This document shows positions 44,160-64,000 of a stretch of 64,000 nucleotides of DNA, in pieces. Made by a program: the position numbers and the translations under genes. Location: assembly GCF_008831285.2 (NCBI RefSeq), contig NC_045141.1:20952848-21016847 (forward strand), in the 5' to 3' direction. How positions within the stretch are numbered: the stretch's first letter is position 1; every line of letters begins with the position of its first letter. This DNA is from Nymphaea colorata (Eukaryota; Streptophyta; Magnoliopsida; Nymphaeales; Nymphaeaceae). The notes below the pieces were generated by a model. It was given only the letters and a program-made list of their open reading frames with translations, was not told the DNA's origin and searched no databases.

Positions 44160-45444
44160 TTACACGAGTGTCGCCCTCATGGGATAACTTATTCACCCCG
44201 TTTCCTCCTCAACTCCTGTCGCGGGAATCCAAAATTTCGTCCAAGAGGCGGTTCCCTTTTCCCTCCATCACCTCCGCCAGCCACCTCTCTCTCTATCCCT
44301 GTCTGCCTTAGGGTTTCTCATTTTCCGAAGCCCCGCCATTTTGACTCTCCTCTGTCCTTCATCTTCTTTCTGTCGGTTCGAATCTCCCGTCGTCGGTCGG
44401 TCCGAATCTCCCGTCGTCGGTCGGTCCGAAAAGAAGAGATCGATCGCGTGCATTAATGAGTAAGACCTTGTTGTTTTTCTTTTCCTTCTTTAGATTTGTT
44501 TTTCCTCTTCGTTTCTTGATTTGTTGATTTCTGCTTGATTTTCAAGTGGAGAAACCATGATTTAGATGTGCGTATTTTATACAAGCGTTGTGAGGGATCT
44601 TGAAGTGTTGGTTGGCTTTCCCTTTTGTCATCAGTTTTTGGGGATGACGAAGGAGAGTTTCGTTGTTTTATCCACTAGGGGTTTTGTAGACGGTCATGAT
44701 TCGTCACGTAGTCAATCGGTACAAAACCCTCATAGTTAGCGTGGGAGCGATAGAGGGTTATTGTAGTCGACGTAGATGTCTTATTCCTGAACTTCTCCTT
44801 TTAGAGAAGCGAACGGATGGCGTCTGGTTCGGTCATCCGTGTTGATGATCAAAATAAAAGTGGAAACTGGGGGGAGATGATGTGTGATGTTAGCATGGAG
44901 ATGGGGTAGCTGTCGAAAAGAAAATTCTCTTGATTTTTGCATCGAGAGAGTTCATTAGGGCACTATCGCCTTCTTTTCGACAACGCATAAATGGTTAAAG
45001 GAGGGAAATGACCAATTTTAAAAGCTAAGGCACTGCCCTCGTCCTGTATTCTGTGTTGTCGACAAGGAATGTCTTATTTGGCACGTTAAACGGACGGTTC
45101 TCAATAGTACACTATGTCTTCTTTAGCATTTGACGTTTCTTACCCTCTGGATGTCTGGAGAGTGTCTTTCGATCTGTAAGGTGGTTCTTCTTGCCACCAC
45201 TTAAACAGTGATTTGTGTGCAATGTTTGTTTAATATATGCAGTCCTTTTTGACACGGTCCAATTACTGCCTAGGCGGATCATCGGGGACAACCACACGCT
45301 ATCTAGATCCACTTGCTTGGTTATTCTACTTGCATTTCATAAGCTCATCTACAAACGTACTTGTAGATGGAGTACTCTGCATGCTTGTGTTTTGGTAGTT
45401 CATTTTTTATTTCTTATGACTCATCTCTTTCGTGCAGTAGAGAG
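44160..45444 (+). promoter_or_regulatory. RPA1 5' leader with intron
   Basis: A GC- and pyrimidine-rich leader exon appears to end at 44459 before gtaagacc. The intron runs to cgtgcag at 45437, leaving only seven leader bases before the ATG at 45445. The leader exon contains a perfect 24-bp tandem duplication (cgaatctcccgtcgtcggtc plus four bases) at about 44380-44428. A leader intron of about 1 kb is common in constitutively expressed plant genes. Confidence 0.6.
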
Positions 45445-48400
45445 ATGTCTGTGAATTTGACAAGAGATGCTATCGCTATGGTGAGCGAAGGGAAGCAGGA
45501 CATAAAGCCTGTTCTTCAGGTTTACGACATTAAATTGGTTATGTCGCAGGCTGCAAATGACAGATACAGATTGCTTCTCTCAGATGGCACCCACATGCAG
45601 CAATCTATGCTTGCTTCTCAATTGAATCATTATGTTAAGTCGGGACAGCTGCAGAAGGGCTCTATAGTTCAAATGATCGAGTATATTTGCAATACTATAC
45701 AAAATCGCAAGTAAGTTGGTGACTCCATTTATTCTACGTACTTTTCTTGTTAATATTGAAGTTTACATGTTGATTAGAAATTTATGTTTCAGCATTCCAT
45801 TTTTATATAGGGATTTTGCTGGTATTCTTATCTCAATTAAATTATATCTCCTTCCTGCTTAAAAATTAAGCAGAGAAAAATGGGTGTTTGCTATTAGGCT
45901 TTTAAGATAGCCCGTTGATCTTCCTAGCATAATGGCCTTCCTCTTGTTCCCTATTGTTCTGGCGGTGTTCCTGGGGAAGCATATATGACATTACTTATCT
46001 GGCTTTCAAGTGGGATTGCCTTGCCAGTCAAATATTTAGGATCTTCCCAAGCTGGTGCTCGCAACTAGGAACTACTCAATTTTCTTGAATTGCTTATGTC
46101 AATGTATTCCAAAAGTAGATTCATATTGTTGGGATTGTTATATAGACATTGTCCTCTATGTAAATTGTTGGTGACCTGCATCTTTGAGTTTGAGGGAACA
46201 GGAGGATGGTGGAGGGAGAGGAATTAAAAGTTGTATTGATCTCTTAGCGTCACATATATATGTTTGTGTGAGTTGTTGAACAAGTTTGGTATTTATTATT
46301 GTTTTATACCTTACTTTTATTGTCATTGGTTAGTTTCATCTTTTGTTGCAGCTGACCATTGTTTTCCCTGAATTAGGATCATTATTGTGATCAACCTGGA
46401 AGTAGTGCTCGATAAGTTTGATATAATTGGTGAGCCAAAACTCTATGTGGGTGCTTCTGCAAATGGTCCAGCTGCACCGCAGGTTGAGTCTGTTCCAGCA
46501 AAATCTTCTCCTGTTCTGTCCCGACCAGCAACTGGAAATGCTCAGCCTTATGGTGTTCCCTATGCTGCTGGCCATCTTGGGGAAGGGCCAAATCCTGGGG
46601 GATCTTCTCTGCATCCCAAAGCTGAAACTGGGGCTAGTGTTACTAACATTGCCAATGGCAAAAATTATGGTATTTCATCACATAGTAATATGGCCAACCA
46701 GAATCAGACTTCAAATATGCATGGGCGAGCAACTCCACAATCAATATATCAGCCAACTCCATCATATGTCAATAGGGGGCCTATTGCTAAAAATGAAGCT
46801 CCTGCTCGAATTATTCCAATTGCTGCGTTAAACCCATATCAGGGAAGATGGACAATTAAAGCAAGAGTCACGTCAAAAAGTGAGCTTAGGCGGTACAACA
46901 ATCCCAGAGGAGAGGGCAAAGTTTTTTCTTTTGATCTGTTAGACTCTGATGGTGGGGAAATTCGTGTTACTTGCTTCAATTTGGTGGCAGATCAGTTTTA
47001 TGATAGGATCAATGTAGGTAATGTATACTTGATATCCAAGGGAAGTCTAAAGCCTGCGCAGAAGAACTTCAATCACCTTAATAATGAATGGGAAATACTT
47101 TTGGAGTCAACTTCAACAATAGAGCCATGCTTGGAGGAAGATAGCTCTATCCCTAGGCAGCAGTTTAATTTTAGGCCTATCAGTGAAATTGAGAGCATGG
47201 AGAACAACTCAATGGTTGATATAATTGGGGTAGTTGTCTCAGTGCATCCTTCTTCTACCATAATGAGAAAAAATGGTACAGAAACGCAGAAAAGAACTCT
47301 TCAGTTGAAGGACATGTCAGGGCGAAGTGTTGAATTAACCATTTGGGGTAACTTTTGCAACGTGGAAGGACAAAGGCTGCAAGAAATGTGTGACTCCGGA
47401 ATGCGTCCCGTTTTGGCTGTGAAGGCTGGTAGAGTAAGTGATTTCAGTGGAAAATCAGTTGGGACGATTTCTACGAGCCAGCTATTCATTGATCCTGAGT
47501 TTCCAGAGGCTCAACGATTAAGGGAGTGGTTCAATAGGGAGGGAAAAAATGTGGCTACTCCATCCATTTCAAGGGACAACTCAATGTCGGGAAAAACAGA
47601 TGTTCGGAAGACTGTGTCACAGATTAAGGATGAAGGTCTTGGTAGAGCAGAGAAGCCAGATTGGATCACTGTGAAAGCAGTTGTTGCATTTGTAAAGGTA
47701 GATAACTTTTGCTATACTGCATGCCCCTTGATGGTTGGTGATCGGCAGTGCAACAAGAAAGTTACTAATAATGGTGATGGGAGGTGGCACTGCGACAGGT
47801 GCGACCAAGATATACCTGAATGTGACTACAGATATCTTCTCCAGTTCCAGATACAAGATCACACTGGCATCACATGGGTAACCGCATTTCAGGAGGCTGG
47901 GGAGGAAATAATGGGAGTCTCAGCTAAAGCCTTGTATATGTTGAAACATGAAGAACAAGATGATGTGGAGTTTGGTAAGGTTATAAAAACTGTTCTCTTC
48001 AATCAATACCTGTTCAAGCTTAAAGTGAAGGAGGAGATTTACAGTGATGAGCAACGGGTCAAGTCCACTGTCGTGAAGGCAGAAAGACTGAATTTTGCAG
48101 CTGAATGCAATTGCCTTTTTGGTTTGATTGGAAGGCTCTCAAGGGATGAGCTGCAAACTAATCCTGCAACAATCTCACATGGAGGAAACAGTTATGAGAT
48201 GAACAGTGCAAGTGGCTACCGAAGTGCTGTGAGTGGCTATGGTGGAAATTCTCTTGGTGGCAACACAGGTAGCAACACTGATGGATACAATGCTTCATTG
48301 GCATACCAATCTGGTTTTATGGGTAGTGGACAAGGTGGTGGTAGGCCTCTCAACTCCTTTTGTAACAAATGTGGTGGCACAGATCACAATCCTATGAACT

Positions 48401-48627
48401 GTCCAGGGCTAAGAGTAGCCGGCGCACATACAGTGGGAAGTTTTGGAAACAGGCTGCCTGGTGCTGGTGTAGATGTTGGTGCTACTGGGGAGAACCGATG
48501 CTACAAGTGCAATCAAAGTGGACACTGGGCAAGAGATTGTCCTGGACCCAACGCTACTCCTATCTATGGAGTCCCTGGTGGTGGTGGATACGGGGTGAGA
48601 AGCAATAACTATGGCGGCCGGTATTAG
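45445..48627 (+). CDS. RPA1: Replication protein A 70-kDa subunit (RPA1) with CCHC zinc knuckles
   Basis: Exons 45445-45710 and 46377-48627 (phase 2 junction, AA|G Lys) give 838 residues. RPA1 is the large subunit of the heterotrimeric single-strand DNA-binding complex used in nuclear replication, repair and recombination. An N-terminal OB fold (about 1-110) is followed by a Gly/Pro/Ser linker. DBD-A (about 234-340) starts IIPIAALNPYQGRWTIKARV and DBD-B spans about 350-465. DBD-C (about 515-680) contains the zinc ribbon, with Cys 538, 547, 561 and 564 (CPLMVGDRQC and WHCDRC). A Gly/Ser/Tyr-rich tail carries two CCHC knuckles: Cys751-Cys754-His759-Cys764 and Cys797-Cys800-His805-Cys810 (CYKCNQSGHWARDC). 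The knuckles mark the RPA1C/RPA1E-type paralogues, which Arabidopsis work links to DNA repair more than bulk replication. The one-intron structure is complete. Its last 560 coding bases and 3' flank are partly duplicated at 56.18 kb. Confidence 0.95.
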
Positions 48628-49680
48628 ATATTGTATAATGGGGAAGTGATCTCTACAAGTGGCTGACAAGCCAATTATGAAATTTGAGATTCTCTAATGG
48701 GTCTTGCTGCCCCACTTTGGTCTTACGTGGCAAACCTGTAAACGCTGCGGCTGTCAATTTCCAGTTAGTTTTAAATAGAAACTGGATGGAGAGAAAAGTG
48801 CGTAAACCACTGAGCTTTTTGTAGCCAGACTTGCGGCCAATGCACCAAGCCAGTCTTATCGAGTGCTGGTCGTTGTTACCTTGTTTTTTGTAATATATTT
48901 ACTATGCGTTCCTTTCCTAGTCACATTGAATTTTATATCGCTTTAAACTGTAGGACGGCGCAGTCCTGACCGTTCTTGCGCTCTATTTGCTACAGGAGAT
49001 GACTAACTGAAGATGAGCTTAACTGGCTTTTTAGCTACATTGGTCTCACAATGGTTGAACTTATTCACCTTGGTCATCTCTTCCACACGATCTCGCAAAA
49101 TGTCCAAGCTTGTCCACAATAAACGTTTATGATTGTTTCAATACATGAAAGGGGTTTGGTATTTGATAAAAACAAGGGGTTTGGTATTTGATAAAAACAA
49201 GGGGTTTGGTATTTGATAAAAACCGTTCATCTTTACGGCGAGCAGGGTGAAATGTTGCTTCTTTGGTACCTTTTTTTTTGTCCTCGCCAAGGAACACGAG
49301 GCTTTGTAAAATTGCAGGCGGCACATATTAGACACTTAAGGGTCGGTTCTCTTACATCACTACATCCTTTTTTCCTCATTCTGTACTTGAAACAAGATAT
49401 GTACAAGAACTTTCTCGCCATAAAGTATAAGGCTTCTTCAACAGGATCACCCCTGTGCATGTCGAAGAGATGAAGATGTCTGACACATGCATCAACAACA
49501 AAGACGAGCGAACGCCGATAGTTGTTCACAGGTAAAGGACAGATGCAATCTTTTAACGAACTCCTTTTTACTTGTAGCATTTCCAATGGAATATGTATCA
49601 TTCACTCATTTCAGCATCACGGTAGATAAAATACAATGATGACTGCCGTCATGATCATCCGTGTCATGATCCTTGAGGCA
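48628..49680. other. RPA1 3' untranslated region and duplicated flank
   Basis: This stretch holds the RPA1 3' end and then DNA shared with 56400-57600 in the second duplication unit. Shared phrases include gagctttttgtagccagact, ctacaggagatgactaactg and gatgcaatcttttaacgaac. A 25-bp minisatellite lies at 49151-49223. Confidence 0.7.
49151..49223. repeat. 25-bp minisatellite, three copies
   Basis: The unit starts ggggtttggtatttgataaa at 49151, 49176 and 49201. The corresponding site in the second duplication unit (about 56800) has a single copy, so the array expanded after the duplication or contracted in unit 2. Confidence 0.85.
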
Positions 49681-50542
49681 TCACTCATGTTTCTTATCAC
49701 GGCCATTGTCTTTACGTTGCTTCTCGCCGTGGTTATCATGCATATGATCTTTGTGGGACTTATGGCAGTGGTCATCATGTACCTTATGATGTTTATTGTC
49801 ATGGCCATGATCCTTAGGATGCTTGTGATGCTTGTCATGATCGTCATGTTCCTTGTCATCCTTCTTGTGTTTGTCATCATCATGCTTCTTCTGATCCTTC
49901 TTGTGCTTATCATCATCATGCTCTTTGTGATCCTTCCTATGTTTATCGTCATCATGTTCCTTGTGATCTTTGTTGTGTTTGTCATCCTCGTGCTTCTTAT
50001 TATCCTTCTTGTGCTTGTCATCATCATGCTCATTATGATCCTTCTTGTGTTTGTCATTGTCATACAATTTGCGATTCTTCTTGTGTTTTTTGTCGTCATG
50101 CTCCTTGCGATCCTTGTGTTTTTCGTCATCATGTTCCTTTTGGTCCTTGTTATGTTTGTCATGGTGAAGCTCTTTGTGACCTTTTTTGTGCTTGTCATCA
50201 TCATGCTCATTATGACCCTTCTTGTGTTTGTTATGGTCATGCTCTTTATGATCCTTCTTGTGTTTGTCATCACAATGCTCCTTGTGATTCTTCTTCTGTT
50301 TGTCATCGACATGCTCCTTGTGTTTCTTCTTCTGTTTGTCATCGACATGCTCCTTGTGATGCTTGTGATCATGCTCTTCATGATCTTCATGGTGTGGATC
50401 ATGCAGATTGTGGTGAGCTGTATCATCCTGCTTGTGATGATGGTCTAAATGTGTCTCATCGTGGTGGCCAACCTCGGGCCTGTCATGATGTCCTTTGGGC
50501 AATGGCTACGACTAGAAGGAGGAGGAGTACAATGCTCCGCAT
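49681..50542 (-). pseudogene. His/Lys/Asp-repeat protein gene, copy A, damaged signal peptide
   Basis: The repeat frame is open from an ATG at 50502 to a stop at 49681 (273 residues). It consists of 12-residue units such as KEHDDDKHKKDH, with His at every second to fourth position. Compared with copy B, about 35 bp are missing inside the signal-peptide coding region. Translation from the conserved start at 50542 (MRSIVLLLLLVVAIAQRTS) therefore stops at once and is out of frame with the repeats. Unless the internal ATG is used, which would give a cytosolic protein, the copy is non-functional. The repeat region itself has stayed open, so the loss is probably recent. The TATA box at 50640-50647 is retained. 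Confidence 0.62.
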
Positions 50543-50639
50543 TTTGGCAGAGAGGGAGGTAGTGAAGTGGGTAAGGAGAGGCAATGGTAGAGAATAAGAG
50601 GTTAGAAGTCGATGGATAATGAAAGGACATAACAACCCC

Positions 50640-50647
50640 TTTATATA
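50640..50647 (-). promoter_or_regulatory. TATA box of copy A
   Basis: The minus strand reads TATATAAA about 100 bases before the ancestral start codon. The same position and context are conserved in copy B at 58592-58599. Confidence 0.6.
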
Positions 50648-52534
50648 CGAAGGTAGCCATGCGCTAACGATTTGAACGAGCTCACACTTCCAAAGAAATG
50701 ATGAACGTGCATGCACGCACTTTACCTACTCATACACCTTCATTGAGCCCTTCGACGGCAGATATATTCTTCTTCATGTTCAATTTTGAATTCTTAATCC
50801 GTGATTGACTTGTTGATATTGTGAATTTTTTTGGTGGTTGACCTTTCCTTGATGGTATATATGGCCTTTATCACCTCTTGCCATTTCTCATCATCACATA
50901 TCCGTTTATTTTCGATACTAAGAACAACGAAATATTTGTCCTTCACTCCGACCTGTTATTCAGTTGTAGACGTTGACCTTTTGCTTGCCCATAGAAAAGA
51001 GAAATTGCTATTTTGGGATGAAAGTACAGATTTTTTGTTAAAATGAATGCAAGAAACATACCAAAAAGACGCCTGATTTTGTTTCTGAAATATAATTTTT
51101 TAAAATATTTATACAAGATAAAGAACATTTAATTAAAGTTTACATATAAATTAAAAAAAAAAACCTTTTTTGAGAGCGCCGAGACCCTGCCAGCCACCTT
51201 GCGTCCGCCCTTAATAGGGACGTGCCCCCACACCAGAATGAGAAGTGATTAATAGTGTGATCATCGTCAAATTATAAGATGCTACTGAAATTCACAAGCC
51301 CCAGCTTGGCCATCCGTTCGGGAAATTCCTGTGAGAAATGGAGTGCCATGAAAGTACTGCTACCGCATAATGCGATGACATGAAGCTGGAGTGGGCTCTG
51401 TATTGATTTAGTAGATAATATATTCCAGAGGAGCCATTAATTTGCTGCTACAACTGAAAAGATGCTTGAGTTGTACGTGATGAGCATGACAGGATCGAGT
51501 GAAAGGATGATGTTTGGTGGCCGACCGATCGAGTTGGATATAAGAGAGTCAACTGTTCAAGACCCAGATTTTAGTGTGCATGCGAAATGTTGGTCCGATT
51601 CCAACTCTCTCGGTATCTGTGGAAGTGGATGAGATGAGATGACCTCCATGAGAAGCCACCCATAACTAAATCTAGGTGTTTTTGATGAATCTGTGGTTCG
51701 AAACTGGATCCTGGTACGGTCGACCATGACTTCGCATGAAAATTTATGACCCCGACGGAACGACGGGACGACCGGCATTAAGACAACCAAGCTAAAAGCC
51801 GCTCTCTAATGACAGGAGTAGCGCCATTTTCGAAACAAGGGAGCTCATGCTTTCAACTTCCACTTTCATGTACAACTAGTCCACACATTCTGATGATGAA
51901 AAACACAGAAACAAAAACACAAAAATAGGAATTATGGGCCTATGGCCGTTGATAATTATGGAGCCGGTAATTCTTACAGAAAGTCAAAGGGCTCTACACA
52001 TGTTGGTCATATTTTTGTTAGGCGGTCTACTGTCTTGGGCATCAGCCGGCCTGGCCTGACACCCAAAACACAAGTCCGAGTGCGTCCTGACACTTAAAAC
52101 TTGAGCTCAAAATAGAAAAATATATTTTTAATATAAAAAAATATATAAATATAATTAATCGTGGTAAAATATAATAATTATATTTAAAAATAATAAAGTT
52201 AATATTAAAAAATTCTTATCTGGTAGAACAGGCTTAGTTGAGCCCACCCGAGCTGGCCCGATAAGTTATTGGGGCAAGTCTGGTACTTTTTTTTCGAGCC
52301 TGAGTCCAAGTTCGAGTCGAGTTGGAGGGGTAGGGTCTTTTGAGAATCATTACTTCACTACGATAGTGTTTGATGGCCAGAAACATATTTCTGGAAACAA
52401 GTTTTCAAAACATGTTTCTGGAATTGGTTTTCTAGAAATAAAATTTTAGATTTTCAAATGTATGTTGTGTTTGGTAACCATGAATTATTTTTCTGGAAAT
52501 TCCCATTCTGCGTTTGATTGCAAGAGATGAAGAA

Positions 52535-52870
52535 TCGCCCCTTTCTTCCTCCGCCTCTACCCCTTTCTTCTTCCTCCTCCTTCCGCCTCCGCCTCCTTCC
52601 CTTTCTTCCTCCTCCCTCCTTCCCCCTTCCTTCTCCCCTCTTGCTCCTCCCTCCTTCCCCTTTCCTCCTCCCTCCTTCCTCCTTCAGTTCTTCCCCTTTC
52701 CTCCTCCCCTCTTTGGCCTCCCTCCTTCCCCTCTCCTCCTTCCATTCTTCCCCTTTCCTCCTCCCTCCTTCCGCTTTCCTCCTCCCTCCTTCCGCTTTCC
52801 CCCTCCCCTCTTCCTCGTCCCTCCTTCCTGGCTTCGCCTCAGCCTCCTTCCCTCCCCCCTTCCTTCCACG
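52535..52870. repeat. Pyrimidine-rich minisatellite (CTCCTCCCTCCTTCC)n
   Basis: About 330 bases of nearly pure C/T on the plus strand, made of variable units like ctcctccctccttcc. The strand asymmetry makes long open frames in several phases, which are not genes. Confidence 0.85.
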
Positions 52871-53038
52871 ATCGAGCCTAACGGCTCCAAAAATAATTCT
52901 GAAACATATTTTTGGAAATATGTTTCCGATTTTCATGTTAACGGTAAAAAAAAAAAAAAAAGTTCTGCATTTGGTAAACAAGAAATATTTTAAAAATTTA
53001 AAATATTATTCTGCTGCTACAATAAAATACCTGACCAT

Positions 53039-53039
<1 letters not shown>

Positions 53040-53089
<50 letters not shown>
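53040..53089. repeat. (AT)n microsatellite
   Basis: An uninterrupted AT tract of about 50 bases. Confidence 0.9.
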
Positions 53090-53091
<2 letters not shown>

Positions 53092-53920
53092 TAATTAGCA
53101 AATAACAGGCCTAACAGATAAAATCAGTCTTTTTAAAAGTGTATTAAAAATTGCTTTAAACATATATAATATAAACCTCTTAATGTGTTTATAAATTCAA
53201 AATTTATATAAATCATGTTTTTAGTTCAAGTCACTTTTGAAAAAAAAAAATCTTTTTTACTATCAAAATTTTGATGTTATGTGAGGCTTTATTTTATGAT
53301 TATGATAAACATTATTAAAATCAGAAAATGACCAACTTAATGTACGTGTCTCACCAAAAAACTCTTTAAGTTACACTGCAGAAAAATACTTTAATAATGA
53401 ATTTTAATAGGTCCAATTTTTATATATGAAAAGAGAGAAAAAAAAGAAAACTAAAATCGGCAGACATCCCAGACAATTATACAAAGTTTTTTGCGTTTAT
53501 TTTAAAAGAATATATATATTTAGGTATGATCACCTGCTTAATTAAATTGGCAATTTAAGCTTCTTAGGTGTACCATTTTGGTGCCCAAGAAAAGGATTAA
53601 AACCTTCAAAAACAACTTAATAACTTGTCCGATTAAAAGGAAAAAGCTTCTTAATTAGTTCTGATACAATGTCCCACAAATGAAGATGTTGTTGTTGGAA
53701 ATTGGGAAAAGCCAAATATGCCAACAAGGTCAAGTAGACCACTAAAAGAATTCAAAACTTCAACCAAGTCAACCTCTGGTCAACATCTCAAAAGTGAACT
53801 TCTAGAAGTACGACGTGGGAAGCAATGTGATTAGACTCGTGTCGCACCTACTTGCACGTCTTCATTTCTTTAACATATGTCAATCAAATTACTAGTACAT
53901 GCATACATGGCAACTTGTCT

Positions 53921-53928
53921 ATATAAAT
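53921..53928 (+). promoter_or_regulatory. TATA box of copy C
   Basis: Tatataaa lies 108 bases before the start codon, followed by the block cattctttgttatccatagcc, which recurs in copies D and E. Three TTGAC-type (W-box core) sites on the minus strand lie at 53729-53733, 53768-53772 and 53779-53783. Confidence 0.65.
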
Positions 53929-54035
53929 GGGTCAAATCATTCTTTGTTATCCATAGCCTTGCAAACTCCCCTTCTTCTTCGCGATCGGCTGCTTCCTTTC
54001 CTCACCCTCCCAAGCTCCTGTGATCTTGTGCAAAA

Positions 54036-54479
54036 ATGAAGAGCACAACATTCCTCCTCATCCTCATCGTAGCTATTGCCCTCTTCATATGCATAGCAGG
54101 TGCTAGAGACCTATCAGAAAACCATCGTAAGGAGCACGAGCATGACCATCGTGAGACGCATTTAGACCATCACCATGAGAAGGATAACAAAGATGGCCAC
54201 CATCCGCATAACCCACATGAGGAGCATCATGAAGTGCATGATCATAGGGATCACAAGGACGATGAGAAGCATGAACATGACAAACGGGAGAAGGATCATA
54301 ACGAGCACGAGCACGACAAACGCAAGAAGGAATATCGTAATGAGCATGACCATGACGAACACGAACACAAGAAGGATCATAAAGAGCACGACGATGACAA
54401 ACATAAGCAGCATCACAAGAGGCACGATGATGACCATTATAAGAGGGATCATAAGGAGCATGATGGCCCTCATTATTGA
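54036..54479 (+). CDS. Secreted His/Asp/Glu/Lys-rich protein, copy C
   Basis: Single-exon gene of 147 residues. Residues 1 to about 23 are a clear signal peptide (FLLILIVAIALFICIAGA), so the protein should enter the secretory pathway. The mature part is almost entirely His, Asp, Glu, Lys and Arg: ENHRKEHEHDHRETHLDHHH, then blocks like HDKREKDHNEHEHDK, DHKEHDDDKHKQHH and the end DHYKRDHKEHDGPHY. There are no cysteines, no further hydrophobic segment and no recognised domain. Regular His-x-x/His-x spacing suggests binding of zinc, copper or nickel, or of polyanions such as pectin; this is inference. TATA box, leader and 3' flank are shared with copies D and E. Copy D is the partner in the second duplication unit. 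Confidence 0.8.
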   Translation: MKSTTFLLILIVAIALFICIAGARDLSENHRKEHEHDHRETHLDHHHEKDNKDGHHPHNPHEEHHEVHDHRDHKDDEKHEHDKREKDHNEHEHDKRKKEYRNEHDHDEHEHKKDHKEHDDDKHKQHHKRHDDDHYKRDHKEHDGPHY

Positions 54480-54964
54480 TCATGCTTTGCATGAGAGTAG
54501 TGCGTCTCTGTTGTGTTGAGCTGCATGCTTTTGTTGTCTGATTGGCTTTTGCTATTTAGTTTCTGCCAATGATTATGTTAAATAAGTGAATGCTACACAA
54601 TTGCAGTGAGGCTGTTACATATGATGGAGTTCAATGAAAGAAGCCTTTGCCTTCCATCCATGGAATGACTATTTTATTGTCGCTGGTCCTTGTTGTTGAT
54701 GCATATCGGCATATATCTTTTATTCCTAGATCGACTCTATTGAAAGGCTACCTTTACCATCGACTCACTCTCTCCCTCTCTCTCTCTTGAAACTTTGTTT
54801 TTTGGCAACCATCAGGAATTTGTTCCCACTCTCGAAACACTTGGGGGCCATTTGACATTAGGAGCAATATGAATAGACTCATGCGTGCTTGCACGTTCTC
54901 ATAGTTACTTTGAGAAAATGATATGTCTATCAAACTACTAGTACATGCATACGTGGCTACTTCT

Positions 54965-54973
54965 TTATATAAA
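54965..54973 (+). promoter_or_regulatory. TATA box retained upstream of pseudogene E
   Basis: Tatataaag followed by gtcactctttgttatccata, matching the core promoters of copies C and D. Confidence 0.5.
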
Positions 54974-55049
54974 GGGGTCCAAGTCACTCTTTGTTATCCA
55001 TAGCCTCTCAAATACCCCTTCTTCTTCTTTTTCTTCTTCTTGATCGGCT

Positions 55050-55565
55050 GCGTTCCTCCTCATCCTCATCGTAGCTACTGCCCTCTCCATATGCCTAGCG
55101 GCAGAGAGACCTACCACAAGATCATCGCGAGAAGCACGAGCATGGCCACAGTGAGACACATTTAGACCATCACCACCAAACGGATCACAAAGATGACCAC
55201 CATCTGCATCACCCACATCTGGAGCATCATGAAGTGCATGATCATAGGTATCACAGCATGAACATGACAAATGCAAGAACGATCACAAAGAAAATGACGA
55301 TGACAAACATAAGAAGAATCATCAGGTGCATGACGATGAGAAACACAAGAAGGATCCTAAGATGCATGAGGACGGCAAACACAAAAAGGATCATAAAGAG
55401 TATGATGTTGGCAAACACAAGAAAGATCACAAGGATCATTATGATGAGAAACACGAGAAGGATCATCATGAGAGTCATGATGGCAAACATGAGAAAGGTT
55501 ACAAGAGGCATGATGAGGACAAACATAAGAAGGATCATAAGGCGCATGATGGCCAACATTATTGA
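55050..55565 (+). pseudogene. His-rich repeat protein, copy E (start lost)
   Basis: Similarity to copies C and D starts inside the signal-peptide region (gcgttcctcctcatcctcat); the start codon and first residues are missing. Small deletions after the signal region (gcggcagagagacc against gcgggtgccagagacc in copy D) shift the frame. The 3' half is still open: from 55326 it reads 12-residue units such as KHKKDHKEYDVG and ends AHDGQHY like its relatives (DGPHY, DGRHY). The 3' flank matches that of copy C. It is a decayed tandem duplicate about 1 kb downstream of copy C. Confidence 0.7.
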
Positions 55566-55852
55566 TCGTGCTTTGCACGAGAGAATTGCATCCCTATTTT
55601 GTTAAGTTGCATGTGTTTGTCGTCTGACTTGCTTTGGCTATTTGGTTTTTGTCAATGATTATGTTAAATAAGTGGATGCTACACATTGCATTGAGACTGC
55701 TACGTATAATATGAAGGAGTTCAATACAAGATGTCTTTGCCTTCTACCTATGAAATGCGTATTTTGTTCTCGCTGGTCCTTGTTGTTGATGCATATTGGC
55801 ATATATCTTGGTATTCCTAGATCGACTGTATGGAAGTACCATCTTTACCATC

Positions 55853-55854
<2 letters not shown>

Positions 55855-55888
<34 letters not shown>
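55855..55888. repeat. (CT)n microsatellite
   Basis: A CT tract of about 34 bases in the 3' flank of copy E; a shorter CT tract is at the matching place after copy C. Confidence 0.85.
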
Positions 55889-55890
<2 letters not shown>

Positions 55891-56184
55891 CTCGCTTTTG
55901 AAGTCTTCGTATTTGGCAACTGTTGCGGATTTTGTCAATGAATTCCCATGTTGTCGGTTCTCTCTCTCTTTTCATACCTTTATTTTTGGCAACTGATGAG
56001 GATTTGATCTTGCTCTTGAAACACTTAAGGGCCATTCAGCATTAGGAACAACGTGAAGGTGTTCTTTGAATTTAGTCCAAATGGGAGTACATTGGACACT
56101 TATGCAACTTATTCCATGAATCTGCAAACATTTTGGCATAGATTCATGAAACATTCATCTTGTTCCCAATGCCAACTGGTGAAG

Positions 56185-57060
56185 TGGCTGTTGTGAAGGC
56201 AGAAAGATGAATTTTGCAGCTGAATGCAAGTGCCTTTTTTGGTTTGATCGGAAGCCTCTCAAGGGATGAGCCGCAAACTAATCCTGCAACAATCTCACAT
56301 GGAGGAAACAGTTATGAGATGAATAGTGCAAGTTTCTGCCGTAGTTCTGTGAGTGGCTATCATGGAAATTCTCTTGGTGGCAGTCTAACTGGTAAATAAG
56401 AAGGAAGAGAAACTGGAAGGATAGAAAAGTCCATAAACTTCTGAGCTTTTTGTAGCCAGACTTGCGGCCTACGGGTCAAGCCAGTCTTCTGGAGAGCTGG
56501 CCGCTGTTATCTTGTCGTTTGTAATATATTTACGCGTTTCTTTCCTAGGCACATTGTTTGTGACTGAGGACATTGAATTTTATATCGCTTTAAACCGTAG
56601 GACGGGGCAGTCCTGACCATTCTTGCGCTCTATTTGCTACAGGAGATGACTAACTGAAGATGAGCTTATCTGGCTTTTTAGCTACATTGGTCTCACAAAG
56701 TTTGACCTTATGTTCCCCATGGTCATCTCTTCCACCACGATCTCGCAAACCGTCGAAGCTTGATCAAAGTAAACGTTTATGATTGCTTCAATACATGAAA
56801 GGACTTGGTATTTGATAAAAACCGTCCATCTTTACGGCGAGCAGGGTGAAATGTCGCTTATTCGATACTTTTTTTTCCTGTTCGAGGACACAAGGGCTTG
56901 ATCTCCTAAACGGTTGTGGTTGTTTCAATAGTTGAGGTGTTGATAAAAATTTACACATCTTTATGGCCAGCAGTGTGGAATATTGCTTCAATTATACCTT
57001 TTTTCCTGACCTATATAGCAGACAAGGCGTCTCATCTTCGTCGGCACAAAATGAAATGTT
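56185..57060 (+). pseudogene. Duplicated RPA1 3'-end fragment
   Basis: From gttgtgaaggcagaaaga at about 56188 the sequence follows the last RPA1 exon (48070-48265). It encodes recognisable pieces such as GLIGSLSRDEPQTNPA and SHGGNSYEMNSAS, with a one-base loss early on. It then jumps to the RPA1 3' untranslated region (matching about 48776 onward), so about 500 bp coding for both CCHC knuckles is absent. It continues with the RPA1 downstream flank. It has no promoter and cannot make RPA1; it is passenger DNA of the segmental duplication. Confidence 0.82.
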
Positions 57061-57609
57061 TCATGCACTCTTTCTTCCATTTTCAGTAGCTTAAACTAAA
57101 CAACAACTTTGCAAATTATGTTCAAGTAAAATTCTAGGTGCTATTCTGGGCGCATATTAGGCGCTTAAGAGTCGGTTCTCTTAACAAGCATCAATACATC
57201 CACCTATCCTCATTCTGTTCTTGAAACAAGACATATACAAGAACTTTGACGTCAGAAATTATAAGGCCTCTTGAACAGGATCAAGGCAACCCCTATCCAT
57301 TGTCGAAGAGGTAAGAAGAACTCTGATACATGCATCAACAACAAAGACGAGCTAGCGCCGATAGTTGTTCGCAGGTAAAAGACAGATGCAATCTTTTAAC
57401 GAACTCTTATTACTTGTAGCATTCCCAGTGGAATTACGCATCATTCACTTATTTCAACATCACGGTAGACAGAAGACCATAGAAGGGACATAAATCACAC
57501 AGAAAGAACAACTCAACATGCTAGTCAGGGACACACTGTTCTTACTCAAAGGGTGCTATGATCAATGATGACTGCCGTCATGGTCATCCGTGTCATGATC
57601 CTTGAGGCA
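57061..57609. other. Duplicated flank 3' of copy B
   Basis: Corresponds to about 49310-49680 in unit 1 (cttaagagtcggttctctta, gatgcaatcttttaacgaac), with an additional 270 bases around 56880-57150 that unit 1 lacks. No gene was found. Confidence 0.6.
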
Positions 57610-58494
57610 TCACTCGTGTTTCCTATGGTGGCCATTGTCTTCATGTTGTTTCCCGCCGTGGTTATCATGCTTATGATCTTTGCAGGACTTATGGCGATGG
57701 CCGTCATATACCTTATGATGTTTATTGTCATGGCCTTCATGATGTTTTTTGTCATGGCCATGATCCTTAGGATGCTTGCGATGCTTGTCATGATCGTCAT
57801 GTTCCTTATGATCCTTCTTGTGTTTGTCATCATCATGCTTCTTATGATCCTTCTTGTGCTCATCATCACCATGCTCTTTGTGATCCTTCCGATATTTGTC
57901 GTCATCATGTTCCTTGTGATCTTTGTTGTGTCTGTCATCCTCGTGCTTCTTATTATCCTTCTTGTGCTTGTCATCGTCATGCTCCTTATGATCCTTCTTG
58001 TGTTTGTCATTGTCATACAATTTTCGATTATTCTTGTGTTTCCGATCGTCATGCTCCTCGCGATCCTTGTGTTTTTGGTCATCATGTTCCTTTTGATCCT
58101 TCCTGTGTTTGTCATGGTCATGCTCTTTGTGACCTTTTTTGTGTTTGCCATGATCATGCTCCTCATGATCCTTCTTGTGTTTGTCATGGTCATGCTCTTT
58201 ATGATCCTTCTTGTGCTTGTCATCACAGTGCTCCTTGTGATTCTTCTTGTGTTTGTCATCGCCAAGCTCCTTGTGATGCTTGTGGTCATGCTCTTCATGA
58301 TCTTCATGATGTGGATCATGCAGATTGTGGTGATCGATATCATCCTTCTTGTGAGGATGGTCTAAATGTGTCTCATTGTGGTGGTCAACCTCGGGCCTCT
58401 CATGATGGCCCCTGGGTATATCCCTGGCTCCTGCTAGGCATATGCATAGGGAAATGGCTACGACTAGAAGGAGGAGGAGTGCAGTGCTCCGCAT
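57610..58494 (-). CDS. Secreted His/Lys/Asp 12-residue-repeat protein, copy B
   Basis: Single-exon gene of 294 residues. I start it at the ATG at 58494 because the next residues form a signal peptide (LLLLVVAISLCICLAGA, about 6-22); an upstream in-frame ATG would bury it. After HHERPEVDHHNETHLDHPHK the protein is a tandem array of roughly fifteen 12-residue units with the consensus KDHKEHDDDKHK (36 bp each). It ends in a degenerate HDKKHHEGHDNKHHK segment. Each unit has about three His and equal numbers of acidic and lysine residues, so the chain is near neutral and certainly disordered. A single Cys occurs in the repeats (EHCDDKHK) and one more near the C-terminus. A secreted or vacuolar metal-ion or polyanion binder is the likeliest role, by composition only. 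Copy A is the partner in unit 1; copies C and D are shorter relatives on the other strand. Confidence 0.8.
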   Translation of the reverse strand: MRSTALLLLLVVAISLCICLAGARDIPRGHHERPEVDHHNETHLDHPHKKDDIDHHNLHDPHHEDHEEHDHKHHKELGDDKHKKNHKEHCDDKHKKDHKEHDHDKHKKDHEEHDHGKHKKGHKEHDHDKHRKDQKEHDDQKHKDREEHDDRKHKNNRKLYDNDKHKKDHKEHDDDKHKKDNKKHEDDRHNKDHKEHDDDKYRKDHKEHGDDEHKKDHKKHDDDKHKKDHKEHDDHDKHRKHPKDHGHDKKHHEGHDNKHHKVYDGHRHKSCKDHKHDNHGGKQHEDNGHHRKHE

Positions 58495-58591
58495 TTTGGC
58501 AGAGAGGGAGGCAGTGAAGTGGGTAAGGAGAGGCAATGGTAGAGAATAAGAGCATAGAAGTCGATGGATAATGAAAAGACATTACAACCCA

Positions 58592-58599
58592 TTTATATA
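58592..58599 (-). promoter_or_regulatory. TATA box of copy B
   Basis: The minus strand reads TATATAAA about 100 bases before the start codon, in the same context as in copy A. Confidence 0.65.
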
Positions 58600-58609
58600 C
58601 AGAGTAGCC

Positions 58610-60241
58610 ATGTGCTAACAATTTGAACGAGCTGCTACATTCCCAAAGACATGATGAACGTGCATGCACGCACAATACCTACTCATACGGCTTCGTTGAG
58701 GCCCTCGACAGCAGATATATTCTTCTTCAAGTTCTATTTTGAATTATTAATCCGTGATTGGCTTGTTGATATTTTGATTTTTTTTGGTGGTTGACCATTC
58801 CTGGATGGCATATATGGCCATTATCACTTCTTGCAATTTCTCATCAACATATATGGGTTTGTTTTCGATGCTGAGAATAACGAAATATTTGTCCTTCACT
58901 CCGACCTGTTATTAAGTTGTTGTACACGCTGACGTTTTGCTTGCCCATAGAAAAGCGGCATGTTATTAGAAGACAAATTGCTATTTTGGGATGAGATCAA
59001 TCCTAAAAGTACAGATTTTTGTTAAAATGAATGCATGAAACATACAAAAAAGCTGCCTGATTTGTTTCTGATATCCAACGAGTTTTTTTCCTTACATGTA
59101 TAAATATTATATCGTTGTGTTATTTCCTTAAGTAATTCTTTTGTGCTTTTTTATGATCATCTTCGCGTGTGGGTGAACTAGCTACTTATGGAACTTAAAG
59201 CATGCGTACGTCCGTGATCGTTTCAAAACCTTTCCCATATTGAAAATGATATACTGCTCCTACTATCACATCATGTCCTTTGGTTTCTTGTCTTAGATGG
59301 TTCTTGCGGTCATGGTAAACGTGCATGTCCACCCATGGTAGACGACTATACCCATTGGCATTCAATTTCTTGGCAGCAGCACGCATCTTACTTCTATATA
59401 AAATCTCCAAATCCGTAACAGTCTCTGTCTATCAGTTCAACTTCTGGCTGCCTCTCCTACAACCAAGCGGTAGCTAGGTGTCAGTGATCCATCTAGGAAA
59501 TTCCACAAACTGAAATTGACTGCAATGAAAGTACTGGGCTACAGGCCTCCAGCACACAATATGATGAAGAAGACGCTGGAGTGGACTTTGTATTTGTTTA
59601 ATAGATCAGATACTGACGCGTTGTGTTCACGAGGAGCCACTAATTTGCCAAGCTGAAAAGATACTTGAGTTGAACGTGATGAGCATAACAAGACAAGATG
59701 GAGTAAAAGGAAGAGGTTTGGCAGCCGACCGCTCGAGTTGAATATATGGGAATCAACTACTGAGGGCCCAGAATATTTTAGTGTGCATATCTAAAAGCGA
59801 AATGCAGATCCACTTCGAACTCGCTGGGTAAATGCGTGGACAATATCAGCCGATCGCTATGAGAAGCCACCCATAACTAAATCTAGGTGTTTTCATGGAC
59901 CTGTGGTTCAAAACTGCATCAAGATGAGAAAAAGTTGCATGTACCGTTGCGCATGGTGCACAGTAAAAGAGCAATGAGCATTTTGTAATTTTTAAAAAAG
60001 AAATATATTTTTGTAGATTTTTTTTCTTTTTTCTATTTCCATTTTTATGTTAAGAAAAAGTTTTTTTTTTTTAAGTTTGAACTGACGATATTTTAGTCAT
60101 TAATTACACTGGTGCATAAAAATTCATGCACGAGTATGACACATATGACCTAATAACAAAAGTGGTGCCACTTCATTTCCAAGACGGGGAAGATTGAAAG
60201 AAGGAACAAATGCTTTCAAAACTTTCATACTCCTTGACCAT

Positions 60242-60292
<51 letters not shown>

Positions 60293-60690
60293 TATATAGA
60301 GAGAGAGAGATAGATATGATTGCTTGCCCAAATTGCCAATTTACTCTTCTTTACCATTTTGGCGCTCAAGAAAAGGGTCAAACGTTAAAATGGACTGGCC
60401 GATACAAGCAAAAGGAAAAAGTTTCTTAATTAGTTTGGATCAATGTCCCTCAAGTGAAGATGTTGAAAAATGGGAAAGGCCATACATGCTAACAAGGAAA
60501 GGTCAAACACTAAAAGAATTCGAACTTTCAACAAGTCAATCTCCGGACAACAACTCAAAAGTTTACTTCTACGAGTGCGTCGTGGGAACCTCATGGAATC
60601 AATATGATTTAGCCTCATGCGTGTGTGCACGTCTTCATTTCTTTGAGAATATGATATGTCAATCAAATTACTAGTACTGACATCGCTACT
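58610..60690. other. Region between divergent copies B and D
   Basis: Divergent upstream DNA of copies B (minus) and D (plus), partly shared with unit 1 (58770-58930, 59510-59910 and, from 60311 on, the copy C upstream region at 53521). An AT/GA microsatellite lies at 60244-60310. No gene was found. Confidence 0.55.
60244..60310. repeat. Compound (AT)n(GA)n microsatellite
   Basis: An AT tract with one interruption, then a short GA tract, at the left border of the copy D upstream homology. Confidence 0.85.
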
Positions 60691-60694
60691 TCTC

Positions 60695-60702
60695 TATATA
60701 AA
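60695..60702 (+). promoter_or_regulatory. TATA box of copy D
   Basis: Tatataaa lies 99 bases before the start codon, followed by catcactctttgttatccat, as in copies C and E. W-box cores (GTCAA on plus) lie at 60502-60506 and 60535-60539. Confidence 0.65.
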
Positions 60703-60800
60703 GGAGTCCGCATCACTCTTTGTTATCCATTCGCAAATACCCCTTCTTCTCATCTGCTTCCTTTCCTCACCCACCCAAGCTCCTCTGATCTTGTGCAAAA

Positions 60801-61097
60801 ATGAAGAGCGTAACATTCCTCCTCATCCTCATCGTAGCTATTGCCCTCTCCATGTGCTTGGCGGGTGCCAGAGACCTATCCGAAGACCATCGTAAGGAGC
60901 ACGAGCATGACCACCGTGAGACGCATTTAGACCATCACCATGAGAAGGATCACAAAGATGGCCACCATCCGCATGGCCCACATGAGGAGCATCATGAAGT
61001 GCATGATCATAGGGATCACAAGGACAATGAGAAGCATGAACATGACAAACGCGAGAAGGATCATAATGAGCATGAGCATGAGCACGAGCACGAGCAT

Positions 61098-61135
<38 letters not shown>

Positions 61136-61304
61136 ACATGACAAACGCAAGAAGGAATATCGTAATGAGCATGACCATGACGAACACGAACACAAGAAGG
61201 ATCATAAAGAGCACGACGTCGACGAACATAAGCAGCATCACAAGAGGCACGATGATGACCATTATAAGAGGGATCATAAGGAGCATGATGGCCGTCATTA
61301 TTGA
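60801..61304 (+). CDS. Secreted His-rich protein, copy D, with expanded HE tract
   Basis: Single-exon gene of 167 residues, close to copy C. The signal peptide is at 1 to about 23 (FLLILIVAIALSMCLAGA), then DHRKEHEHDHRETHLDHHH, DHKEHDVDEHKQHH and the end DHYKRDHKEHDGRHY. The only length difference from copy C is 20 extra residues: a run of about twelve Glu-His dipeptides at about residues 91-114, encoded by a gagcac/gagcat hexamer array at about 61066-61137, where copy C has two. The frame is intact, so both copies C and D look functional and secreted. The function is unknown; composition suggests metal or polyanion binding. Confidence 0.8.
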
Positions 61305-61959
61305 TCGTGCTTTGCAAGAGAGTAGTGCATCTCTATTGTGTTGAGCTGCATGCTTTTGTTGTCTGATTTGCTTTTGCTATTCAGTTTTGTCGATGATTAT
61401 GTTAAATAAGTGAATGCTACACAATTGCAGTGAGACGGCTACATATAATATGAAGGAGTTCAATAAAACAAGCCGTTGCCTTGTATCTAGGAAATGACTA
61501 TTTTATTCCCACTCATCTTTGTTGTGGATGCATATCGGCATAGGTCTTTTACTCGTAGGTTGACTACATAGTAAGACTCTCTTCATATTGACTCTCTCTC
61601 CAGAAACCTTCCTTTGTGGCAACCGTAAGGATTTTTTCTCCGCTCTTAAAACACTTAGGGGCCACTGGACATAATTAGGAGCAAGATAAGAATGTGATAG
61701 CATATATTGACTGGTTGATATGTGAATTCTTTTGGTTTACCATTCCTTGATAGCATATATGCCCATTATCACTTCTTGCCACTTCTCATCAATGTATATG
61801 CGTTTATTATCGATACTGAGAACAACGAAATATTTGTCCTTCATGATGGCCCCTGGGTATATCCCTGGCTCCTGCTAGGCATATGCATAGGGAAATGGCT
61901 ACGACTAGAAGGAGGAGGATTGCAGTGCTCCGCATTTTGGCAGAGAGGGAGGCAGTGAA
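61305..61959. pseudogene. Flank of copy D and rearranged His-rich fragment F
   Basis: The first half is the 3' flank of copy D. From about 61705 the sequence matches the upstream region of copies A and B (ttgatagcatatatgcccat, gagaacaacgaaatatttgt). At about 61842 it switches directly to the inverse end of the gene: on the minus strand, codons for LLLLVVAISLCICLAGARD, then the start codon and leader up to 61959. In A and B those two blocks are in the opposite order, so F is a shuffled remnant, as left by a deletion between tandem copies. An LTR element has inserted directly after its leader piece. Confidence 0.65.
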
Positions 61960-62608: not shown

Positions 62609-64000
62609 AGCTCCCCCTCCAGCCTCAAGTGAGGGAACATTCCTGCAAAAAGAACAAAATTAATATACTGCCTTAAAGGCAGTCATCTCAACTAAGTCTC
62701 TACACATATCATGTTTCTCTTTAGGTAGAGACTTCGTCATCATATATGCTGGATTATCATCTGTATGGATCTTATCAAAAACAAACTGCTTCGACTCTAG
62801 AACATCACGTATCCAATGATACCTCACGTCTATATGCTTTGACCTTGCATGAAAAGTAGAATTCTTTCCAAGGTGAATAGCACTCTGACTGTCACAGTAA
62901 AGCACGTACTCGTCTTGACTGAACTGAAGTTCCTACATGAACCTCTTCATCCATAGGAGCTCCTTGCTCGCCTCTGTAGCTGCAATAAACTCTGCTTCAG
63001 TAGTAGATAATGCTACACATTTCTGAAGTCCGGATTGCCAAGAAACTGCACCACCTGCATATGTCAATAAAAAACCAGATATAGATCTTCTCCCGTCAAT
63101 GTCTCCTGCCATGTCTAAATCTGTATAACCAACGAGAATAGGTTTTTCTGCCCCAAAACAAAGTGAGAAACTGCTAGTCCCACGAAGGTATCTCAAAATC
63201 CATTTAACTGCTTCCCAGTGTTTCTTTCCTGGATTTGAGACAAACCGACTAACAACACCAACTGAATGAGCAATATCTGGTCTAGTACATACCATAGCAT
63301 ACATCAGACTACCTGTGACTGAGGCATAGGGAATCTTCTCCATATCTTCCTTTTCTGAATCTGTCCTTGGACTCTGCTTGGTGCTCAACTTGAAATGCGC
63401 TGCAAGAGGGGTGCTAACAGGCTTTTCCTTGTCCATGTGAAATCTTTGAAGTACCTTCTCAATGTATTTCTCTTGAGATAGCCATAGCTTCTTCGACTTC
63501 CTATCTCGTGTTATCTTCATACCCAAAATCTGACTAGCATGTCTCAAGTCTTTCATAGCAAACGACTTGCTCAACTCCTTTTTCAAGTTTGAAATTCTCG
63601 ATATATTGTTGCCAACAATAAGCATGTCATCAACATAAATCAACAAAATGATAAAATCATTACCTGAGAATTTCTTCACAAAGACGCAGTGATCTGAAGT
63701 AGTTTTGGTGTAGTCATACTCCCCCATAAATGACTCGAACTTCTTGTACCACTGCCTAGGTGCCTGCTTCAGACCATACAAGCTTTTCTTTAATCTGCAA
63801 ACATGGTTTTCTTTACCTTTCATAAGAAAACCTTCTGGCTGCATCATGTAAATTTCTTCATCAAGATCACCATGAAGAAAAGCTGTCTTCACATCCATCT
63901 GTTCGATCTCTAAATCAAGACTGGCTGCCAAACTAAGAACAACTCTGATAGATGACATCTTGACCACCGGTGAGAATATCTCGTCGAAGTCAACTCATTT
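61960..64000 (-). mobile_element. Ty1/Copia LTR element, Tnt1-like (Tork lineage), 3' part
   Basis: A fossil retroelement in minus orientation that continues beyond the window. From right to left: reverse transcriptase with AFLHGDLDEEIYMMQPEGF, KKSLYGLKQAPRQWYKKFE and the catalytic YVDDMLIVG; RNase H with ALSTTEAEFIAATE and YCDSQSAIHLGKN; then a purine tract (62609-62625) and the 3' LTR at about 61960-62608. Protein order and wording match tobacco Tnt1. The visible coding part is interrupted at least once, so it is broken. Good conservation suggests a fairly young insertion, but the 5' LTR is not visible, so it cannot be dated. Confidence 0.88.

Follow-up and report, generated by a model that had tools for sequence, protein, structure and literature searches.

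Downstream of RPA1, the gene for the large subunit of replication protein A, the genome of Nymphaea colorata carries a cluster of reading frames dominated by His, Lys, Asp and Glu codons, which raises the question of whether they encode a constrained protein family and what such proteins could do. The cluster was analysed within a stretch of 64,000 nucleotides (contig NC_045141.1, positions 20,952,848 to 21,016,847 of the forward strand; hereafter the window), where six copies of one gene span positions 49634-61959. We favour, with a probability of about one in two, a small tandem family of secreted (or vacuolar), probably disordered proteins rich in His and charged residues that would act as a metal buffer.

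The initial annotation had recognised three intact genes and three damaged copies, and inspection of the open reading frames (ORFs) and of the damage bears this out. The intact genes are SA (54036..54479, + strand, 147 residues, C-terminus HDGPHY), SB (60801..61304, +, 167 residues, with a leader followed by a H/E/D/K chain that includes an (EH) array and ends in HDGRHY) and LB (57610..58494, -, 294 residues, made of 12-residue units with the consensus KDHKEHDDDKHK). The damaged ones are a long copy, LA (49634..50542, -), in which a deletion in the leader causes a frameshift while the mature part is still open in one frame; a short copy, SP (55050..55564, +), which has lost its start, changes frame and ends in HDGQHY; and LF (61841..61959, -), a stub of a long copy reduced to the leader and 99% identical to 58400-58518. 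The long genes lie on the minus strand and the short ones on the plus strand, every long/short pair being divergent, as the annotation had described. When SA, LB and their N-terminal parts served as tblastn queries (E 1e-4, complexity filter off), all 111 hits started within the six locations, so that no further copy was found in the window. Likewise, only seven of the 303 stop-to-stop frames of at least 60 residues in the window exceed 15% His; five are His frames of cluster copies, and the remaining two seem to represent antisense frames of these repeats.

Common transcription signals and coding constraint

The division into two subtypes proposed by the initial annotation holds for the long and short forms but not for their separateness. 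SA and SB share 93% of their aligned residues, and LB aligns to both over the leader and the initial 50 or so mature residues (from ETHLDH on) before its 12-residue units begin; 12-mer-like stretches (KKDHKEHDDDKHK) also occur in the short genes. A TATA-type element, TATATAAANGRGT, is present in all five copies that keep their upstream region (SA, 53920..53932, +; SB, 60695..60707, +; SP, 54966..54978, +; LB, 58587..58599, -; LA, 50635..50647, -), and these are its five matches in the window, against 0.02 expected. Similarly, all five copies with a 3' end carry the element AAATRAGTGRATGNT, which we take to resemble a poly(A) signal. It reads AAATAAGTGAATGCT in SA (54580..54594, +) and recurs in SB (61404..61418, +), SP (55666..55680, +), LB (57440..57454, -) and LA (49597..49611, -); with up to one mismatch allowed, the window holds five matches, all exact, against 0.22 expected. 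As both patterns were written from these same copies, their match is unsurprising and their exclusivity within the window is the point. The five upstream regions, aligned together with the first coding bases, reach a mean column identity of 72%. Since promoter, leader, ETHLDH stretch and 3' element are held in common, the long and short genes are paralogues of one homologous family, although elements common to duplicates partly reflect ancestry alone.

A TGCACGT block located about 60 bases upstream of the TATA-type element is invariant in all five promoters (58658-58664, -, in LB; 60627-60633, +, in SB) and is a candidate regulatory site.

Protein-level constraint is clearest in the short genes. 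The coding sequences (CDS) of SA and SB differ at 22 of 444 aligned sites (5.0%; 60 gapped columns excluded) and have diverged about fourfold more slowly than their flanks, where 93 of 458 upstream and 65 of 375 downstream sites differ (17-20%; p 1e-12 and 1e-8 versus the CDS). The proportion of synonymous differences (pS, 0.135) exceeds that of nonsynonymous ones (pN, 0.036; p 0.001), which gives an uncorrected omega of 0.25. Against a neutral expectation of 0.22, derived from the spectrum of 290 substitutions over 2088 flank sites, the observed synonymous fraction is 0.41 (omega 0.39, p 0.015). Furthermore, relative to the pooled flanks, pN amounts to 0.19 of their divergence (p 3e-14) whereas pS shows no reduction (p 0.42), a combination that speaks against plain gene conversion of the short CDS. 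The low divergence thus looks more like an effect at the protein level than like recent conversion of the entire CDS.

Constraint is also seen on the 12-residue units. In the His frame of LB, comparison of the units with their consensus (10 of the 12 detected units, the first and last being excluded) yields 24 synonymous and 24 nonsynonymous changes where 18% synonymous would be expected (p 3e-7). Pairwise comparisons give a pS of 0.91 and a pN of 0.18 among the 12 units of LB, and 0.87 and 0.20 among the 15 units of LA; as the same pattern is seen in the damaged copy, it mostly predates the breakage of LA. A protein in an alternative frame was discarded, the other two sense frames of the LB units having no synonymous excess. 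An antisense protein was discarded as well: one antisense frame has an excess (p 1.4e-5), but it shares its degenerate positions with the His frame and its consensus unit contains a stop. For the long pair the signal is less clear. Its mature part, with LA taken in its open frame, has a pS of 0.214 and a pN of 0.068 (p 2e-5), with a corrected omega of 0.52 (p 0.014).

These figures bear on the alternative that the cluster is low-complexity DNA without function, a repeat array in decay that happens to remain open in one frame. Three of the six copies are broken and the long pair CDS (71 of 826 sites) is nearly as divergent as its flanks (52 of 546 and 39 of 313), as such an array would be. Nevertheless, the slow divergence of the short CDS, the synonymous excess in the His frame and the promoter and 3' elements common to the copies make this alternative very unlikely. 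In agreement with the initial annotation, the ORFs, leaders, constraint and common promoter and 3' elements all support a gene family with a secretion leader.

Protein design and possible functions

All three intact ORFs begin with a signal-peptide-like, putative secretion leader, judged by eye from its Lys/Arg start, its hydrophobic stretch and the sequence AGA/RD, which we take as the cleavage site by the usual rule. Assuming cleavage there, the mature chains of SA, SB and LB count 124, 144 and 271 residues with 36, 47 and 72 His. The composition is as first annotated: His makes up 27-33% of the mature chains and H+K+D+E+R together 84.7% (SA), 87.5% (SB) and 83.4% (LB), while Gly accounts for 1.6%, 2.1% and 4.1%, Cys for zero, zero and two residues of the mature chains, and F/I/L/M/V/W for only three, four and eight. 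The 12-residue unit was also recovered, Tandem Repeats Finder detecting a 36-bp period with 13.7 copies in LB (57793-58281) and 14.7 copies in LA (49840-50364). What mainly distinguishes SB from SA is an expanded array of the hexamer GAGCAC (11.3 copies at 61068-61135) that encodes (EH)n in SB and is mostly missing from SA; this array may possibly vary between individuals. The chains are probably largely disordered. Indeed, an AlphaFold2 model of LB has a mean predicted local distance difference test score of 55 and a predicted template modelling score of 0.21, and is confident only in the leader helix (residues 2-21), although a single-sequence model made without an alignment is weak evidence for disorder.

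Such chains could hold metals. Once the leader is cleaved at AGA/RD, the mature protein would be released to the apoplast or the vacuole, where its many His residues, together with Asp and Glu, would bind Zn, Cu and Ni with low specificity. The binding that we infer would probably operate as in the metallohistins of Alnus, with a different composition. Metal holding may further be gated by pH, because a quarter to a third of the residues are His, so that the computed net charge swings from -12 to +14 (SA), from -21 to +13.5 (SB) and from -2 to +50 (LB) between pH 7 and pH 5.5, figures that stem from model pKa values and ignore crowding. The resting apoplast is acid; at this pH the chain would let go of its metal and attach to acidic polymers of the wall, and alkalinisation of the compartment would turn the chain into a chelator. 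The most specific form of this mechanism, in which the secreted H/K/D/E polyampholytes are a pH-gated trap, a wall-bound polycation at acid pH and a Zn/Cu chelator upon alkalinisation by attack or stress, is quite doubtful.

The same charge swing would suit secreted antimicrobials acting, whole or cleaved, as pH- and metal-dependent polycations on fungal or bacterial surfaces in the way of shepherins. Histatins act likewise as antimicrobials, and tandem duplication with decay, as found here, is common in defence genes. The leader peptide and the computed charges at pH 5.5 (+14, +13.5, +50) are in line with this role, and shepherin I, which forms Zn and Cu complexes, is reported to make fibrils and display strong anticandidal activity only with Zn (PMC10698721). 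However, the short proteins have a negative computed net charge at pH 7 (-12 and -21), the mature chains contain hardly any of the hydrophobic residues counted above, and the changes between the short pair are conservative instead of diversifying, which leaves an antimicrobial function possible but rather unlikely. We attach a similarly tentative value to a polyampholyte of the cell wall, seed or vacuole that would serve as a stress protectant or as a pectin- or calcium-binding filler, its transition-metal binding being incidental. A share of 83-88% H/K/D/E/R with high Asp/Glu would be appropriate for such a molecule, as would a mostly low-confidence, unfolded model, but none of the proteins matches a dehydrin or any other Pfam family at cut-off, and the leader peptide makes a cytosolic role of the late embryogenesis abundant type improbable.

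The C-terminal HDGxHY found in all three short copies (SA, SB and SP) suggests yet another possibility, a precursor of the split burpitide type in which this motif would be the core of a cyclic peptide with a C-terminal Tyr. A leader peptide and a repetitive charged precursor would be suitable, and, of 700 plant transcriptome assemblies, 66% are reported to contain candidate stand-alone precursors. Yet split burpitide cyclases are described as being guided by a hydrophobic residue about seven positions ahead of the core, and there is none here: in mature SA, the F/I/L/M/V/W residues are L3, L20 and V44 of 124, far from HDGPHY. In addition, each chain offers one possible core only, and the signature of the long genes reads HDGSHH and lies beyond the stop. 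We did not retain the family among split burpitides, and consider this origin highly improbable. LB indeed ends at a TGA common to LA, past which the in-frame stretch (57563..57609, -) reads CLKDHDTDDHDGSHH and resembles the family C-terminus. It differs from LA (49634-49680, -) at one of 47 bases; this is not significantly fewer than in the CDS (p 0.17), and translational readthrough of the shared TGA was not retained.

Returning to the metal buffer, several observations weigh against it. In the AlphaFold2 model, a low-confidence helix covers residues 129-161 of LB, so that disorder is not established throughout this chain. Compared with shuffled sequences, adjacent His pairs are depleted in all three proteins (z -2.2, -4.0 and -3.4) and HxH is depleted in LB (z -3.0), while HxxxH is enriched in SB only (z 3.2). 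His spacing yields no single metal-site motif, which is easier to reconcile with a low-specificity buffer than with a defined site and does not prove binding. LB terminates ahead of the C-terminal signature. The long CDS, as noted above, differs almost as much as its flanks; moreover, its pS is higher than the flank divergence (0.106; p 0.002) and its pN reaches 0.64 of it (p 0.011), so that the long pair is weakly constrained and its coding rate cannot be set directly against that of the flanks. Finally, the breakage of half of the copies indicates that the family is partly dispensable.

Growth of the cluster beside RPA1

The initial annotation missed how the cluster expanded, namely through duplication of a block that includes part of RPA1. 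Self-comparison of the window reveals a collinear block: segments of 48052-51710 correspond to segments of 56173-59920, and 53544-54870 to 60330-61687. The left edge of the block falls within the 3' coding part of RPA1, and a fragment of that gene (56173..56382, +; 90.6% identical to 48052-48262 over 212 aligned bases) consequently lies inside the cluster. Ungapped divergence is 8.1-12.5% in the RPA1 piece and the long-gene flanks and 17-20% around the short genes, and piece 51335-51710 matches at 72% only; this unevenness along the block points to two duplication events or to later conversion of its left part. A long-type promoter piece directly abuts the LF stub (61706..61843, -; 84.5% to 58757-58898 and 85.2% to 50804-50945), and the two together are, as judged from these alignments, the remnant of a further long copy. 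As far as the sequence tells, the family is one ancestral transcription unit (TATA, leader, ETHLDH stretch and 3' element) that was duplicated beside RPA1 and partly decayed.

RPA1 itself occupies 45367..48627 (+), with a Rep-A_N domain at 45367-45711 and the OB, C-terminal and zinc-knuckle domains in the ORF 46690-48627. A profile search of selected ORFs also placed in the window a Nucleotid_trans gene, a Methyltransf_29 gene and a copia-type reverse transcriptase domain (RVT_2; 62936-63958, -) to the right of the LF stub; that a copia-type insertion cut the promoter of this stub is a guess. With RPA1, these genes give the window the look of nuclear DNA from a plant. Two other repeats were noticed, a 25-base unit in three perfect copies between RPA1 and LA (49149-49223) and, between LA and SA, a CCT/AGG-rich low-complexity tract in which several tandem periods overlap (52535-52867).

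Relation to known proteins and significance

In database searches, none of the three proteins reaches a curated cut-off in Pfam or NCBIfam. The weak Pfam matches of SA to PFF1_TM (E 0.0005) and DUF6056 (E 0.097) and the NCBIfam matches below cut-off (nine for SA, six for SB and one for LB, the best being lipase_YSIRK_Sa at 1.2e-5) were put down to low complexity or to the hydrophobic leader. Dehydrins were discarded, as none of the three proteins has a Pfam dehydrin match up to E 0.1. A PDB sequence search with LB and SA returned one insignificant match for the former (E 0.24) and none for the latter. In the open-access literature, neither the 12-mer nor any of six characteristic peptide strings was found (subscription papers and plant sequence databases being outside this scope), and no such family was apparent by title or abstract start among the matches listed for His-rich proteins.

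The initial annotation had concluded that no plant family of this design is characterised, which overstates the case given that metallohistins, shepherins and His-rich defensins are all reported to bind metals. Metallohistins are secreted, and their very His-rich, Cys-poor chain behind a signal peptide resembles that of the cluster proteins; their original descriptions are said to be those of Pawlowski et al. in 1997 and Gupta et al. in 2002. In nodules of Alnus glutinosa, these proteins are described as sequestering Zn, Ni, Co, Cu, Cd and Hg, and the title of 1997 cited by the same source calls them glycine- and histidine-rich (PMC11534348). In contrast, Gly is scarce here (1.6-4.1%) and Lys, Asp and Glu dominate, and for want of a Gly/His composition, compared by description only, we do not file the family as metallohistins. 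DgGHRP1 of Datisca glomerata (PMC3756986) is another His-rich plant protein but, by its name, a Gly-rich one. Shepherins I and II of Capsella bursa-pastoris (28 and 38 residues) derive from a 120-residue precursor with a signal peptide (PMC4695807); they share with the cluster family a signal peptide ahead of a His-rich chain, Zn and Cu complexes being known on the shepherin side, but their Gly/His-rich composition sets them apart. His-rich defensins of Solanaceae and Brassicaceae, which are reported to bind Ni and Zn, possess eight Cys (PMC7557933), against zero, zero and two in the mature chains of this His-rich family, which was not assigned to them. In the sources considered, no described His-rich plant relative among metallohistins, shepherins and defensins appears to have the H/K/D/E 12-mer composition. 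TaHRC of wheat Fhb1, also annotated as His-rich (a 'histidine-rich calcium-binding protein'), is a nuclear protein and is not known to be secreted or built of 12-mer repeats.

In plants, extracellular Zn, Cu and Ni are managed for the most part by transporters, small chelators and Cys-rich proteins. To the proteins involved in metal buffering or defence, a constrained, secreted and Cys-poor family with about one-third His would contribute a further class. Besides, the family lacks a fitting model in Pfam and NCBIfam, and its simplicity would allow it to be approached with a single recombinant protein. If true, the pH-gated trap would be a plant counterpart of nutritional immunity that operates without cysteine or fold.

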